This document shows, one piece after another, positions 2,969 through 17,752 of a DNA stretch of 21,688 bases (position 1 is its first letter; every line of letters begins with the position of its first letter). The stretch lies in assembly GCA_040757115.1 (NCBI GenBank), contig JBFLYA010000049.1, positions 1-21,688 of the forward strand, given 5' to 3'. Position numbers and translations under genes: made by a program. Under the pieces are notes generated by a model that worked only from the letters and a program-made list of their open reading frames with translations, searched no databases and was not told where the DNA came from. The stretch is from a bacterium (GTDB lineage Bacteria; UBA9089; CG2-30-40-21; SBAY01).

Positions 2969-3073
2969 AATATTGTAACCGTTCAGGTGGTCTGGTGTCT
3001 ATGTGTCTGAGTTACATAGACTACCAGACACTTAGACACATTTTTATTCGTCCAATTCGTGAAATTCGTGGTA
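2925..3073. repeat. Hairpin with ACGAATT-type periodic arms
   Basis: The left arm (2925-2957) is built of CACGAATTAAACGAATTTTACGAAT-like units. The right arm (3044-3073) is the inverted equivalent, with three ATTCGT units ending in ATTCGTGGTA. Between them lies a second hairpin, about 2988-3041, whose arms contain GTCTGG/GTGTCT units and their complement AGACTACCAGACAC. The left arm encodes the tail of the broken antitoxin, so the element arrived after that gene. Confidence 0.6.
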
Positions 3074-3254
3074 TATTTTATACTTTCCTATATGATCGAG
3101 CAAAACATAGTGGCTAATTGGTTGCTTGAAGCAGGAAAGCGAACCTAAAGGTTCGCACTACATTTATCGAATGTCACAGATTAATTCGTGTCCATTTGTG
3201 GCTAATTTCTCTAATTCTCTGTGAACTCTGTGCCTCTGTGGCTGAACGGTTAAG
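2975..3254. mobile_element. Non-coding element with TAACCGTTCAG terminal inverted repeats
   Basis: TAACCGTTCAG at 2976-2986 is repeated inverted as CTGAACGGTTA at 3242-3252, about 277 bp apart. The adjacent right arm contains CTCTGTGCCTCTGTGGC-like units. The ends resemble those of the 484-bp element at 15465 (GTAACTATTCA), giving a common form GTAAC-Y-R-TTCA. No flanking direct repeat is evident. Inside are GCGAACC/GGTTCGC (about 3139-3156) and ATTCGTGTCCATTTGTGGC, both apparently parts of other hairpin families. It carries no gene and overlaps the hairpin at 2925-3073. The 332 bp from 2969 to 3300 contain nothing else recognisable. Confidence 0.5.
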
Positions 3255-9046: not shown

Positions 9047-9425
9047 CTAGTGCTCTGTCGCTACTCAATTGATGTCCCCCGCTGGCGGGGGATTAAGGGG
9101 GTGGAATATGAAATCTGAAATAGAAGAATCCACCCCCCTACCCCCGCCCTTATCGTTACCCACATCTTGAGAGAGGGAAGATTTTTGAGGGGAAGTACTG
9201 CGAAATAACAGAGATATGCAGCCCCCAATAATTAACAATTGATAATTTACAATTAACAATTGACCATTATTTGTTAATTTTGTCAACATCAAATATTAAT
9301 TGTGAATTGATAATGGCTAATTGATAATTGTCAATTAACTATATTTGGACTTGTGGGTAACGATAAGACCCCCGCCAGCGGGGGACAACGGCCAATCAAT
9401 CACTTGAATGGCGACAGAGCACTAG
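9047..9425. mobile_element. IS630-like MITE with nested repeats
   Basis: The ends CTAGTGCTCTGTCGC (9047-9061) and GCGACAGAGCACTAG (9411-9425) are perfect 15-bp inverted repeats. If the outer TA pairs are the target duplication, as for IS630/Tc1-mariner elements, the element is about 375 bp. A second exact inverted pair, GTCCCCCGCTGGCGGGGG (9074-9091) and its complement (9369-9386), is itself palindromic. There is no transposase. The interior is occupied by further inverted repeats, so the element has been a landing site or is composite. Confidence 0.6.
9149..9367. repeat. Nested palindrome inside the MITE
   Basis: CTTATCGTTACCCACA (9149-9164) and TGTGGGTAACGATAAG (9352-9367) are exact 16-bp inverted repeats. 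Between them, AT-rich arms made of AATTGATAATT/AATTAACAATT units (about 9229-9270 and 9295-9346) form another periodic hairpin. No coding region lies here. Confidence 0.55.
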
Positions 9426-10750: not shown

Positions 10751-12928
10751 ATGTTAACAAGGTTAACAAAAACAATGCCAGTAATCATTCTGGCAGGAGT
10801 GATGGGGTTCTACCTACCCCAATCAGTTTTAGCAGAGGAGGCTATTGAACTGGAAAAGGTAGTGGTAACAGCCACTAAGGGCGAAAGGGTAATAGCAGAT
10901 GTCCCTGTGCGCACTGAGGTGATTACCAGCAAGGAAATTGAAGCAAAAGGGGCAACAAATCTTTACGAGGCTTTAGAAGGAACACCTGGAATAAGGGTAG
11001 AACAACAATGTTCCTATTGTAACTTCAGCGTTTGCAGAATGCAAGGATTAGAAGCAGGACATGTCCAGATATTGATTGATGGACAACCGGTATATTCCGG
11101 GCTGGCATCCGTATATGGTTTACAGCAGGTGCCAACTGCAAATATCGAGCGTATCGAGGTGGTAAAAGGTGCAGGGTCTGCCCTTTACGGGGCAAGTGCT
11201 ATTGCCGGGGTGATTAACATCATCACTAAAAAGCCAACTAAAGAGCCTACAATGAATGTAAATATGAGCTTTGGAGAGCATAAAACCAATAATTATGAAA
11301 TATTTGCCTCTACCAAAAAGGCAAATATGGATATGATGCTCACTGCTCAGAAGACTACCGGTGATGAAATATTAGAGGATGATTCAGGTCTTTCAAAAGA
11401 GGAAGAACGATTGACGGATAGAGTGAAAACCGACAATGTTGCTGGGGGAGTAGAGATAAACTGGTACGATGTGTTTGGAGATGACAAACTCAGTTTTTCA
11501 GGAAGAACCACAAATGAGCAGCGCCAGGGTGGTGATGTAGACACATTTGAAAATTTCTATGCAGAATCAGCAGAGAATATTAAGACTACTCGGTATGAGG
11601 CAGGAATTGGTTACAGAAAAAATCTTTCAGAAGACCAAATAGTAAATCTTAACCTCAGTTACTGCACCCATCATCGCAACGCCACTAATGATTCCTTTGT
11701 GGGTGACTATAAAGACACTCATAATGACGCATTTCCACCCGTAGATGAAATGCGACCCTATCTGGCAGATGAAAAACTTTATGTGCTGGATTTGAACTAT
11801 GCCTGGCTGGCAGGAGAAAAACATCGCCTGTTAGCAGGGGTTCAATACGGCAAAAATGAGCTGGAGGAGTCAGGCAAGTATGTAATCCTTGAAGGTCCAG
11901 ACCCCGCTACTGGAAGCACCTATCTCTCCACAAGCAAAAAGAGTGCGGATGAGATAGGGATTTATCTCCAGGATGAAGTATCTCTAAACGATACCCTGGA
12001 GTTGGTAGTAGGGGCAAGGTATGACAGGCATAACTCAGAGGATGATTTTGGAGGTTCTGGTGATGCTGCTCCCAAGGATAGGATTAAACTTACCTACGAC
12101 GAAAAGGCATTTAGTCCCAGAGCGGCGTTAATGTATCGTCCAAATCCTCAAACTACCGTCCGCACAAGTCTTGGCACAGGTTTCCGTGTACCGTATGGAT
12201 TCAGTGAAGATTTGCATCTTTGCAGTGGCTCGCCAAGAGTTTATAAAGGTGCAGGCTTAAATCCTGAAAAATCGGTAAGCCTAAATTTTGGCGTAGATTA
12301 TGAGGCAGAAAGATATAGATTATCTGCCAATATCTTTCGCACAAACCTTAAGGATAAGATTGGCTTTACTGATGCCAGTGATAAGGCTACAAAGTTAGGA
12401 TATACCTATGAATGGGCAAATATAGGTGACGCCTATACCCAGGGCATAGAATTGGGTCTGGTAACTCGCTTAGCCGAAAATCTCAATCTCGACTGCAATC
12501 TGGCTTACACCGATGCCCAATATAAGAAAGAACGAGCGGATTGGGTAAATTCTCATGGAGGTAAATATGCCTCTGACAGTAAGTATATCCCTCGTGTTCC
12601 AGAGCTTACAGCAGGCGTTAAGCTGGATTATAACAAGGTGAACTGGAACCTTGTATTAGACTGTAACTATACGGGTAGAATGTACATTGATTATTGCCAG
12701 GAGGAAGAGGTAGAGAATCCTAATAGCAAAATTAAGCATACAGAGCCGTTCGTAGTAGTCAATAGCAAAATATCCAGAAGTTTTCCAGATTATGGACTTA
12801 CTACCTTTGTAGGTGCTAAAAATCTATTTGATGAAGTACAGGATGAGAAGCATCCGGATGATGCGGCATTTATGTACGCACCTTACACGGGCAGGATGCT
12901 TTACGCTGGAATGGAAGTAGCATTTTAA
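10751..12928 (+). CDS. TonB-dependent outer-membrane receptor
   Basis: This 725-residue protein has a signal peptide (MLTRLTKTMPVIILAGVMGF...VLAEE, cleavage near residue 28) and a TonB box ELEKVVVTATK. The plug domain has DVPVRTEVITSKEIEAKG, LYEALEGTPGIRVEQ, ILIDGQPVYSG and ERIEVVKGAGSALYGASAIAGVINIITKKP. A 22-strand barrel follows, with LNPEKSVSLNFGVDYE and an aromatic C-terminus (YAGMEVAF). It imports a siderophore, metal chelate or similar with energy from TonB-ExbBD, encoded next door. The plug has an unusual CSYCNFSVCRMQGLE segment (residues about 87-101). GGAGGTG precedes the ATG by 4 nt. The stop codon is the first part of a hairpin repeat. Confidence 0.92.
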   Translation: MLTRLTKTMPVIILAGVMGFYLPQSVLAEEAIELEKVVVTATKGERVIADVPVRTEVITSKEIEAKGATNLYEALEGTPGIRVEQQCSYCNFSVCRMQGLEAGHVQILIDGQPVYSGLASVYGLQQVPTANIERIEVVKGAGSALYGASAIAGVINIITKKPTKEPTMNVNMSFGEHKTNNYEIFASTKKANMDMMLTAQKTTGDEILEDDSGLSKEEERLTDRVKTDNVAGGVEINWYDVFGDDKLSFSGRTTNEQRQGGDVDTFENFYAESAENIKTTRYEAGIGYRKNLSEDQIVNLNLSYCTHHRNATNDSFVGDYKDTHNDAFPPVDEMRPYLADEKLYVLDLNYAWLAGEKHRLLAGVQYGKNELEESGKYVILEGPDPATGSTYLSTSKKSADEIGIYLQDEVSLNDTLELVVGARYDRHNSEDDFGGSGDAAPKDRIKLTYDEKAFSPRAALMYRPNPQTTVRTSLGTGFRVPYGFSEDLHLCSGSPRVYKGAGLNPEKSVSLNFGVDYEAERYRLSANIFRTNLKDKIGFTDASDKATKLGYTYEWANIGDAYTQGIELGLVTRLAENLNLDCNLAYTDAQYKKERADWVNSHGGKYASDSKYIPRVPELTAGVKLDYNKVNWNLVLDCNYTGRMYIDYCQEEEVENPNSKIKHTEPFVVVNSKISRSFPDYGLTTFVGAKNLFDEVQDEKHPDDAAFMYAPYTGRMLYAGMEVAF

Positions 12929-13010
12929 CTGGTGATTGGTAATTGGTAACTGGTAACTGGTAAGTGGTAATTGGTAACTATTTAACCAGTTACCATTTAA
13001 CCAGTTACCA
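12927..13010. repeat. Hairpin with TTGGTAA-type arms, second copy
   Basis: The left arm (12927 to about 12980) consists of ACTGGTAATTGGTA units and the right arm (about 12981-13010) of TTTAACCAGTTACC units. It begins at the receptor stop codon. It is followed by ATGGAGGTGT, as after the copy at 10637, so the receptor gene is bracketed by two related palindromes in the same orientation. No clear direct repeat flanks this copy. Confidence 0.6.
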
Positions 13011-14778: not shown

Positions 14779-15411
14779 ATGAAGAGTGAAGAGTTATTCG
14801 ATCAGTATGCTGAGAAATATGATGAATGGTATGAAATGAATCGCCTGGCATACCTTTCAGAGCTTGAGGCGGTGAGAAGTGTTTTGCCTCAGGGTAAAGG
14901 TTTAGAGGTAGGTGTAGGCACAGGTAGATTTGCTACCCCCCTTGGGACATCAGTCGGCATAGACCCATCTTACAAAATGCTTAAAAAGGCTGCGGAACGA
15001 GGGATAAGCGTGATACAGGCACTCGGAGAGCACCTTCCTTTTAAGGGGGCTGAGTTTGATTATCTGCTCTTGATTGTTACCCTGTGTTTCGTGGATAACC
15101 CTCAGGCTGTCTTAGCAGAGTCTAAATGGGTGCTTAAGCCGGGTGGTAGGCTCATTATTGGCATAGTGGACAAAGATAGCTTTCTTGGTAAACTCTATCA
15201 GAGTAAGAATAGTGTGTTTTACAAGGTAGCCAGATTTTATTCGGCTCAGGAGGTTATAGAGTTGCTGAAGGTGAACGATTTTAAGGAGATAACAACTATC
15301 CAGACCATCTTTTGTTTGCCGAAGATTTTAAAGGAAGTAGAACCCCATCGGCAGGGATACGGTCAAGGTGGTTTTGTGGTTATATGCGGGATAAAAAGTA
15401 ATCAGTATTAA
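14779..15411 (+). CDS. Class I SAM-dependent methyltransferase
   Basis: This 210-residue methyltransferase reads FDQYAEKYDEWYEMN, then motif I LEVGVGTGRFATPLG, an acidic motif II GIDPSYKML, ALGEHLPFKGAEFDYLLLIVTLCFVDNP, and WVLKPGGRLIIGIVDKDSF, which is the Methyltransf_11 pattern. It starts 9 bp after tonB and is probably the last gene of that operon. Its substrate is unknown; some relatives are found with metal or arsenic uptake genes, but nothing here proves that. The C-terminal part (QTIFCLPKILKEVEPHRQ) contains a single cysteine. Confidence 0.85.
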   Translation: MKSEELFDQYAEKYDEWYEMNRLAYLSELEAVRSVLPQGKGLEVGVGTGRFATPLGTSVGIDPSYKMLKKAAERGISVIQALGEHLPFKGAEFDYLLLIVTLCFVDNPQAVLAESKWVLKPGGRLIIGIVDKDSFLGKLYQSKNSVFYKVARFYSAQEVIELLKVNDFKEITTIQTIFCLPKILKEVEPHRQGYGQGGFVVICGIKSNQY

Positions 15412-15430: not shown

Positions 15431-15459
15431 TTGACTATTATACTTCTTTAGGTTATAAT
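15431..15459 (+). promoter_or_regulatory. Strong promoter, likely of the R-M operon, disrupted by an insertion
   Basis: TTGACT (15431-15436), a 17-bp spacer and TATAAT (15454-15459) make a near-consensus sigma-70 promoter. The last three bases of the -10 box are the first bases of AATAATTC (15457-15464), which is duplicated at 15949-15956. The insertion therefore lies at the transcription start. Without it, the promoter would be about 130 bp from the mod start. Confidence 0.65.
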
Positions 15460-15464
15460 AATTC

Positions 15465-15948
15465 GTAACTATTCACCCTGTAGGAAAGTAGGAGAGTAGG
15501 GAAGTAGGAAAGGGAAAGAAAATGAATGAGAAGTTAGATGATTTTAGACAACTTGTAGTATGGCAAAAAACCATCATTTAGTGATAAGAATATACGAAAT
15601 AACCAAAAACTTCCCCACTGAAGAAAAATATGGATTGGTGCAACAGATGTGCCCAGCGGCTGTTTCTATTCCAGCAAATATTGTAGAAGGTTTTAAGAAA
15701 CAAGGCATAAAGAATAAGTTAAATGCCTATAATATAAGCCAGGGATCTCTTGAAGAACTAAGGTATTATCTAATTCTATCTAAAGATCTTAATTATCTGC
15801 CAGATTTTCAATCCATTTGGGATATATCTGAAGAAGTGAGTAGGATGCTTATAGGTTTAATCAAATCAATTAAGAGTAAAATAGTATGAAGTATTTTCCC
15901 CCTTTCCTACTTCCTACTTCCTACTTGCTTGGTATGCTGAATAGTTAC
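15465..15948 (+). mobile_element. 484-bp insertion with terminal inverted repeats carrying a 23S-IVP-like gene
   Basis: The ends GTAACTATTCA (15465-15475) and TGAATAGTTAC (15938-15948) are perfect inverted repeats. An exact 8-bp direct repeat AATAATTC flanks them (15457-15464 and 15949-15956). Inside the ends are a second pair of inverted arms made of AGTAGGA units (about 15480-15512 and 15898-15926), so transcripts would form a long stem closing around the single gene, a four-helix-bundle protein. There is no transposase. The plan resembles intervening sequences of 23S rRNA (stem plus IVP gene), but here it sits in an ordinary intergenic site with a target duplication. Confidence 0.75.
15522..15889 (+). 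pseudogene. Four-helix-bundle protein of the 23S rRNA intervening-sequence family, frameshifted
   Basis: The gene starts at ATG 15522 (MNEKLDDFRQLVVWQK). The frame breaks at a run of six A residues (15565-15570), where it would soon stop at TAG. The frame shifted by -1 continues HHLVIRIYEITKNFPTEEKYGLVQQM, then AAVSIPANIVEGF, LEELRYYLILSKDL, about 121 residues in all, the usual family length. Members form pentameric basic bundles; homologues occur in 23S rRNA intervening sequences and as Avd with diversity-generating retroelements. The conserved RR before AAVSIPANI is replaced by CP. The break could be decay, a sequencing error, or programmed -1 slippage on A6. An internal ATG at 15560 also gives most of the protein. 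Confidence 0.75.
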
Positions 15949-16078
15949 AATAATTCTTATCAGCGTTGGGTAAATTTTTTAAGGAGAATCTATACCCATA
16001 GAGAGAAATGTACGAATTCTTTTGATAATATACAAGATACACCATGCCGTGCCTGAGACTATATGGAGGATAAAATAA

Positions 16079-17752
16079 ATGGCAACGCTAAATTTTAAAG
16101 GAAAAACATTTGTCCAGAATCATCATCTATCGGTGAAGTATCATCAGCTTGTCCCTAAAAAAGATAAAAGTTTGACTGATAAAGTTAGCCTTAATGATAA
16201 CCTCATACTTTATGGGGATAATCTCAAAAGCCTAAAAGCCCTTCTCCCCACTTATACCGGCAAAGTGAAATGTATCTATATCGACCCACCATACAATACC
16301 GGAAATGAAAGATGGGTCTATAACGATAATGTCAACTCTCCGATGATGCAGGAGTGGCTCGGTAAGGTGGTTGATATTGAGGACTTGACCCGCCATGATA
16401 AATGGCTTTGTATGATGATGCCAAGATTGAAACTTCTGCGAGAGTTATTAAGAGAAGATGGTGTGATTTTTATAAGTATTGATGATAACGAAGTCCACCG
16501 TTTGAGAATGTTAACGGATGAGATTTTTGGTGAACAAAACCTTATTTCTCAAATTATTACAGTAGCAAATAAGGGAGGACAGGATTATTTGGATATTGCG
16601 AAGACCCATGAATATATTCTTTGTTATGGCAAAACAGATTTTGTTAAAGTAGGTGAGTTACCTAAAGATATATCTGAGTTTCCTTTTAAGGATAAAGAAG
16701 GTAACTACCAATTAAGAGAGTTGCGGAATAGAAATCCTAAATTTAATCGGCAAAATCGTCCGAATTTGTTTTATCCAATCTATATCAACCCCAATTTATG
16801 TGATACAAATAAACATTGCGCTATAACTTTAGAAAAAGATAATAATTTTCATATAGAGGTATTCCCTAAAAACAGTGAGGGGAAAGATAGTTGCTGGCGG
16901 TGGAGTCAAGAATTACTGCTTAGAAATATTTCAAAGAGACCAGAAGATAGTACTGTGATAGCAAGGCAGAGAAAAGACGGTGGTTGGAATATTTATGAAA
17001 AAAATCGAAAGGCAACCCAAAAAGCAAAATCAGTGTGGGATGAAAAAGAAATGAGGACAGAATTAGGAACGCGTATACTTAGAGAAATTTTTGGTGAGTC
17101 AAATCTGCAATTTCCAAAACCAGTTGAATTGATTAAAAAAATAATTCTGCTAAGCACGGAGAAAGAAGATATTATTCTTGACTCCTTTGCTGGCTCTGGC
17201 ACAACAGCCCATGCAGTTTTAGACCTAAACAAAGAAGATGGCGGCAATCGTAAATTCATCCTGGTTGAATGTGAAGATTATGCAGACAGAATAACCGCAG
17301 AAAGGGTGAGAAGGGTTATCAAGGGTGTCCCAAATGCAAGAGATGAGAAATTAAAAGAAGGCTTAGGTGGCACATTCAGCTATTTTGAACTTGGTGAGCC
17401 GATTGAGATGGAGAGTATTTTAGAAGGCGATAAGCTGCCCACCTACCTTGAGCTTGCAAGATATGTCTTTTATACTGCTACAGGTGAGGAATTTGACTCA
17501 TCAGAAGTTGATGAGAATAAAAACTTTATCGGTGAATCAAAGGAATACGAGGTTTATTTGTTTTACAAGTCAGATATTGAATATCTTAAATCCACCGCAC
17601 TTACGCTTGATAGGGCAAAGAATTTAGGGACTTACAAGGGCAAAAAGCGATTGGTTTTTGCACCCAGCAAATACCTTGATACCGAATATCTTTTAGAATA
17701 CCGGATTGATTACTGCCAATTGCCGTTTGAGATTTATAAGTTGAAGGAGTGA
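16079..17752 (+). CDS. mod: Type III-like DNA adenine methyltransferase (Mod)
   Basis: This 557-residue N6-adenine or N4-cytosine DNA methyltransferase of the beta class has catalytic motif IV DPPYNTGNE (69-77) first and SAM-binding motif I DSFAGSGTTAHAVL (from 368) later. The variable middle (about 150-340) is the target-recognition region. Upstream NLILYGDNLKSLKALLP and KWLCMMMPRLKLLRELLREDGVIFISIDDNE are typical of Type III Mod subunits. It would mark host DNA and give sequence specificity to Res. The ATG follows TGGAGGA. The downstream genes are on the same strand with short gaps, so they form one operon; the target sequence cannot be predicted. Confidence 0.9.
   Translation: MATLNFKGKTFVQNHHLSVKYHQLVPKKDKSLTDKVSLNDNLILYGDNLKSLKALLPTYTGKVKCIYIDPPYNTGNERWVYNDNVNSPMMQEWLGKVVDIEDLTRHDKWLCMMMPRLKLLRELLREDGVIFISIDDNEVHRLRMLTDEIFGEQNLISQIITVANKGGQDYLDIAKTHEYILCYGKTDFVKVGELPKDISEFPFKDKEGNYQLRELRNRNPKFNRQNRPNLFYPIYINPNLCDTNKHCAITLEKDNNFHIEVFPKNSEGKDSCWRWSQELLLRNISKRPEDSTVIARQRKDGGWNIYEKNRKATQKAKSVWDEKEMRTELGTRILREIFGESNLQFPKPVELIKKIILLSTEKEDIILDSFAGSGTTAHAVLDLNKEDGGNRKFILVECEDYADRITAERVRRVIKGVPNARDEKLKEGLGGTFSYFELGEPIEMESILEGDKLPTYLELARYVFYTATGEEFDSSEVDENKNFIGESKEYEVYLFYKSDIEYLKSTALTLDRAKNLGTYKGKKRLVFAPSKYLDTEYLLEYRIDYCQLPFEIYKLKE

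Follow-up and report, generated by a model that had tools for sequence, protein, structure and literature searches.

The window, a 21,688-nucleotide stretch of DNA, carries a discrete 484-bp insertion (15465-15948) in the intergenic space between ORFs 14779-15411 and 16079-17752. The insertion is bounded by perfect 11-bp ends, GTAACTATTCA, and the only two exact matches to this sequence within the whole window are the ends of this element. Further inside, AGTAGGA-type tandem units, in which 7- and 8-bp units are mixed, form complementary arms around a gene of the four-helix-bundle family. The features are as follows.

15457-15464, no strand: left copy of the target duplication, AATAATTC, which is single in the empty site of the sister species G001
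15465-15475, + strand: left terminal inverted repeat, GTAACTATTCA, an end of the IS66/ISBst12 type (compare the ISDge4 ends, PMC12898284)
15480-15514, + strand: left inner arm of tandem 7-8-bp GTAGGAA/AGTAGGAG units, with a 15-bp perfect complement to 15900-15914
15522-15889, + strand: four-helix-bundle (S23/23S_rRNA_IVP) gene, frameshifted (PF05635; alignment with the intact copy L004)
15900-15928, + strand: right inner arm, complementary to the left one and built of CCTACTT units
15938-15948, - strand: right terminal inverted repeat, TGAATAGTTAC, reading inward GTAACTATTCAGCATACC, in which 12 of 14 bases equal the ISDge4 end GTAACTGCTCAGCA
15949-15956, no strand: right copy of the target duplication, AATAATTC, exact

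The 11-bp inverted ends, the exact 8-bp duplication and the inner arms of AGTAGGA units had been proposed in a sequence-only reading, and all three were borne out at these coordinates. When folded as RNA, the element is predicted to form a long hairpin (-123.7 kcal/mol; z -3.4), with none of 100 shuffled sequences equally stable. No match to an Rfam family was found in the window.

The gene locus matches PF05635 with an E value of 6.2e-29 and 102 bits (cut-off, 33.8), and the protein of the intact sister copy L004, for relatives of which structures have been solved (2gsc and 2rld), matches TIGR02436 with an E value of 3.2e-33 and 114 bits (cut-off, 24). The window gene lacks one base near 15570 that L004 has; this breaks the frame that begins at the family start (15522) and leaves 15560-15889 as the only part open in the original frame. 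The single gene described in the sequence-only reading is therefore frameshifted, not intact. For orthologous cassettes, dN/dS could be considered in one pair only, an underpowered comparison of 1 synonymous and 4 non-synonymous changes. Avd of diversity-generating retroelements, to which there is distant sequence similarity (NF033474, 35.3 bits), was rejected as a candidate, the score being far under the family cut-off of 80 bits.

The source genome (G000, 4.3 Mb) was compared with that of G001, a sister species of the same genus; both assemblies are fragmented. At the window site, G001 has the empty allele ...AGGTTATAATAATTCTTATTAGCG... with a single AATAATTC, as had been anticipated for a relative, and a query made of the two flanks joined by one AATAATTC matched G001 unbroken across the junction (...TTTAGGTTATAATAATTCTTATTAGCGTTGGG...). 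The window element is thus a genuine, discrete insertion, given this empty site, the near-identical copies at unrelated sites and the exact 8-bp duplications. The ends, at 11 bp, are short enough to bring to mind a palindrome that arose by chance, or a normal host gene flanked by repeats through coincidence, but the same three lines of evidence leave that explanation a negligible probability, and the empty sites and the multicopy alignment rule it out. Directly to the right of the empty site, G001 (L063, ~1827-2650) contains ~0.8 kb of other sequence that has no counterpart in the window and reads like a nucleotidyltransferase/HEPN gene pair.

Copies in the source genome and its sister species

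Six further copies with the same ends were found in G000 (L004, L009, L010, L011, L019, and L023), and these are 90-99.5% alike where aligned. An exact 8-bp duplication is present in four of the six G000 copies with both ends and flanks visible, the window copy included, namely AATAATTC (window copy), AGAAAAGT (L010, with a clean empty site in G001), and CTATAAAT and GTGAAATG (in L011 and L019). L004 and L009 contain no exact duplication. At the L004 site, a sequence of roughly the size of the element is present in G001, and L004 may be an older insertion. L009 has no duplication because 110 bp of target is missing; G001 has this additional target, so the loss either accompanied or followed the insertion. 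G001 contains at least seven copies, and all seven complete copies found there are flanked by an exact 8-bp duplication, so that the duplications expected in other copies were indeed found in both species.

An intact reading frame was seen only in L004 among the G000 copies. L009 and L011, which lie at different sites, share one rearranged, gene-broken interior, and a single internal deletion is common to L019 and L023. In G001, remnants of 176 and 202-209 bp, which retain only a fragment of the gene, occupy six sites, all of them flanked by separate exact 8-bp duplications; a 284-bp form is found at a seventh site. Loss of the gene did not halt spread, and, since frameshifted or mostly deleted copies were inserted with exact duplications, the protein is dispensable in cis. 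The sequence-only reading had proposed an autonomous or host-assisted mobile hairpin with this protein as its only product, linked to the 23S rRNA intervening sequences; on such a model, the protein itself would be the mobility factor, acting in cis or in trans. The single gene, the hairpin fold and the protein family shared with those sequences (PMC4990558) favour such a mobility factor, as does the recurrence of these genes in repeat-armed hairpins across phyla. An intact four-helix-bundle protein from elsewhere could help in trans, and the spread of broken and deleted copies is accordingly an argument against a role of the protein in mobility rather than its exclusion; together with the evidence on the ends given below, it makes protein-driven movement very unlikely.

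Terminal sequences of the element

The end consensus GTAACYRTTCA occurs 1065 times in the genome (525 + 540), compared with 22 times (9 + 13) for a reversed-pattern control. In a 386-kb sample of G000 used for the pairing of ends, 24 facing pairs enclose 165-541 bp. An exact 8-bp duplication was found at nine of these 24 pairs and an exact duplication of 5-7 or 9-12 bp at none, and the mismatched-pairing control yielded no exact 8-bp duplication in 552 combinations. The four-helix-bundle gene is present in only a handful of the GTAACYRTTCA elements of the genome, and hundreds are gene-less.

Ends of the same type also bound genes for IS66-family transposases. In G000, such a gene (L057), which contains two stop codons, lies between GTAACCGTTCAGGTA and the inverse of this sequence. 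Three more come from related species: an intact single-ORF transposase of 468 aa (L230) has the ends GTAACCGTTCACA, another transposase gene (L232) has the ends GTAACTACTCAGG, and a third (L233) has ends near-identical to the latter. No exact 8-bp duplication was present at any of the IS66 transposase loci, and none of the transposases found was both intact and bounded by exactly GTAACTATTCA. ISDge4, a member of the ISBst12 group that has been caught transposing, has GTGACTACTCAGCA and GTAACTGCTCAGCA as its ends, together with an 8-bp direct repeat and a single gene for a 449-aa transposase (PMC12898284); the right end of the window element, set beside these ends, reads inward GTAACTATTCAGCA. 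An 8-bp duplication has also been given for IS66 members (PMC3281130).

The same-type ends on IS66 transposase genes and the likeness to ISDge4 lead us to read the outer element as a non-autonomous element of the IS66/ISBst12 type. The window element combines family-type ends beginning with GTAA, an 8-bp duplication, the lack of its own transposase and a multicopy distribution, as is characteristic of miniature inverted-repeat elements (MITEs). A new type of mobile element, as first suggested, is not indicated, because the same ends bound IS66 transposase genes in the genome and in the order, as well as hundreds of gene-less elements. That the ends are common to so many gene-less elements and are IS66-type also counts against protein-driven movement.

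A second IS66-ended MITE remnant lies at 2975-3253 of the window (GTAACCGTTCAGG ... CTGAACGGTTAA, the right end being degenerate); it contains GTGTCTG-type repeats and no four-helix-bundle gene. In many other gene-less GTAACYRTTCA elements (L147-L166, and one in the 5' flank of L025), the inner arms consist of repeats of CCGCAGAGACGCAGAGA, CCACGAAGRACACGAAG, or CCACTGATTAACACGGAT, which may resemble the repeats around GxxExxY genes.

Repeat arms around four-helix-bundle genes

Inverted arms were found beside the four-helix-bundle gene at 24 of 25 loci in G000 and at 68 of 79 loci in relatives from many phyla, the criterion being that the arm score exceeded the 95th percentile for offset controls (shifted positions at the same loci, not other gene families); the relatives were picked by protein closeness, and the figure of 68/79 applies to this sample rather than to the family as a whole. 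Arm scores above 50 were obtained at 21 loci and at none of 374 controls. The arms have a period of 7 bp, with a self-identity of 0.40 at lag 7 against 0.26-0.28; the value is raised again at lag 14, and no excess comparable to the 7-bp period was seen at other lags. Likewise, the 386-kb sample contains 32 arrays of period 7, compared with 0-4 for any other period from 5 to 12. When arms were swapped between loci, the own partner paired best in 12 of 20 cases in G000, a clear signal, the remainder including near-duplicate loci. Among the relatives, the signal was weak (own partner best in 10 and within the top 5% in 31 of 79) because many lineages share similar units. Arms of 7-bp units were also recognized by eye around plasmid-borne genes in Trichormus variabilis ATCC 29413, Nostoc sp. 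ATCC 53789, Picosynechococcus sp. PCC 7003, Aulosira laxa NIES-50, and Anabaena sp. 90.

GTAACYRTTCA ends, which had been expected to be conserved around homologues, were absent around the four-helix-bundle genes of 80 relatives except for one stray match. This near-absence is a further point against protein-driven movement. The notion of a wider family of four-helix-bundle hairpins is therefore retained in part: the 7-bp-period arms recur across phyla, but usually without IS66 ends.

The cassette was also found in other settings in G000. L012 is an unrelated MITE that has CCCTACAACG ends and a TTAA duplication and for which G001 shows a clean empty site, and the four-helix-bundle gene of L020 lies within the CTAGTGCTCTGTCGC ends of another unrelated MITE type. 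The sites of L017, L018, and L202 differ between the two species: the repeat-armed gene found in one of them corresponds, in the other, to a heptamer hairpin that lacks the gene. L209 is a bare cassette between nuoA-like and nuoB-like genes in G001 and is missing from G000, the spacer being too diverged for its borders to be defined. The cassettes L005, L007, and L014 were simply inherited.

These observations bear on the possibility that the inner repeat-armed cassette is itself mobile, as has been proposed for 23S rRNA intervening sequences, and was carried secondarily by IS66-type ends at the window site, a reading that extends the one given for the outer layer rather than competing with it. 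The arms at most own and related loci and their 7-bp period, the copies within three unrelated MITE types, the presence or absence of L209 without MITE ends, and the exchange of gene and gene-less hairpin at L017, L018, and L202 speak in its favour, but recombination between repeats, through loss or gain, would look alike, three cassettes were simply inherited, and no bare-cassette insertion with exact borders or a target duplication was found in the G000/G001 comparison. A self-mobile cassette is therefore regarded as a tentative and rather unlikely reading. Concerted change of both arms could, as a conjecture, arise from repeat slippage and hairpin template switching, with no dedicated enzyme.

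Two further gene-less structures were observed in the window: an element at 9048-9425 with CTAGTGCTCTGTCGC ends and internal CAATTAA/CAATTGA repeats, of the same MITE type as L020, and a bare heptamer hairpin at 12925-13010, composed of TTGGTAA/CTGGTAA units and their inverse, directly upstream of the AGGAGG-like site that precedes the next gene. At the L017 and L022 sites in G001, the two species differ in the small elements that occupy the same intergenic place (a gene-less TTACCAR hairpin and an element of the CCACAGAG type), which would fit the idea that certain spacers are landed on repeatedly.

Several four-helix-bundle genes are located near CRISPR components. In L001, L006, L205, and L207, repeat-armed genes lie between copies of the CRISPR-like repeat GACCTGATGAATAAGGGATTGCGAC, and in L001 a gene-less CGGGACT hairpin is also present between the next two GACCTGATGAATAAGGGATTGCGAC repeats. 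Other genes lie inside cas operons (L248, 486-842; L250, 498-866; and L002, whose cas-like neighbours were read by eye), with neighbours of the cas10/cmr3 type in Picosynechococcus PCC 7003 and cas6/cas4 in Anabaena sp. 90. The 23S rRNA IVP is listed among CRISPR-associated genes in a published figure (PMC10910872). Hitchhiking cassettes might explain this association of the S23-family protein with CRISPR operons.

A proposed two-layer element and its known relatives

The window element is best explained, with a probability of about 0.87, as a non-autonomous IS66/ISBst12-type element (MITE) that carries a passenger gene cassette, in two nested layers. The outer layer would consist of the GTAACTATTCA ends, with cutting and joining carried out by a single-ORF IS66 transposase that acts in trans and has its gene at another place in the lineage; this transposase is the probable mobilizing enzyme, and its action on the ends would yield the 8-bp duplication. 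The inner layer would be the passenger cassette, a hairpin with arms of ~7-bp tandem repeats and the four-helix-bundle gene in its loop; this cassette appears to have been captured by the window element and by several other MITEs. It would then be the outer element that moved the window copy, and the protein, broken there, would have been unneeded. The ends, the duplication, the empty site, the multicopy family, the IS66-borne ends, the spread of forms without an intact gene and the recurrent 7-bp arms that support this explanation are all observed. The earlier proposal of a discrete insertion with a hairpin gene survives, but it fused the two layers in treating hairpin and mobility as one system, and the testable two-layer model, in which IS66-type ends move the element and the hairpin cassette rides, supplants the self-mobile four-helix-bundle hairpin.

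More speculatively, and with the odds against it, S23 genes with 7-bp-period arms would form a widespread hairpin cassette in its own right, mobile or RNA-active independently of IS66, taken up by unrelated MITEs and representing the common origin of 23S intervening sequences and gene-less heptamer hairpins. The link between S23-family genes and 7-bp inverted arms across phyla offers a handle on the origin of the 23S rRNA intervening sequences and on the nature of dispersed bacterial heptamer repeats. In the open-licence literature, no paper was found that describes a link of four-helix-bundle proteins with IS66/MITE, GxxExxY, or tandem repeats, or that ties heptamer repeats to S23-family genes.

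Among known systems, cyanobacterial STRR repeats are 7-bp tandem units between genes and often form inverted pairs. Heptameric repeats, often as inverted pairs, have also been described in Xanthomonas and Nostoc (PMC4692102). The arms reported here resemble both in their tandem 7-bp units, frequent inverted pairing and intergenic position, but they enclose a four-helix-bundle gene, a tie of which no description was found in PMC4692102, and the units of the window element are a mixture of 7 and 8 bp.

Intervening sequences of 23S rRNA with an S23-family gene and a long hairpin have been described (PMC4990558). The window element resembles those of Coxiella and Leptospira in that its S23/four-helix-bundle gene is predicted to lie in the loop of a long stem (z -3.4), but it is located between protein-coding genes rather than in a 23S rRNA gene, has transposon ends and a target duplication, and its gene is broken; the suggested link is thus one of common protein family and hairpin shape.

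The IS66 family, in particular the ISBst12 group (e.g. ISDge4) and derived MITEs, shares with the window element the GTAAC-type ends and the 8-bp duplication, and ends of this type are found on single-ORF IS66 transposase genes in the element's own genome. The window element differs from these in that it contains no transposase and carries a four-helix-bundle gene in the form of a repeat-armed hairpin.
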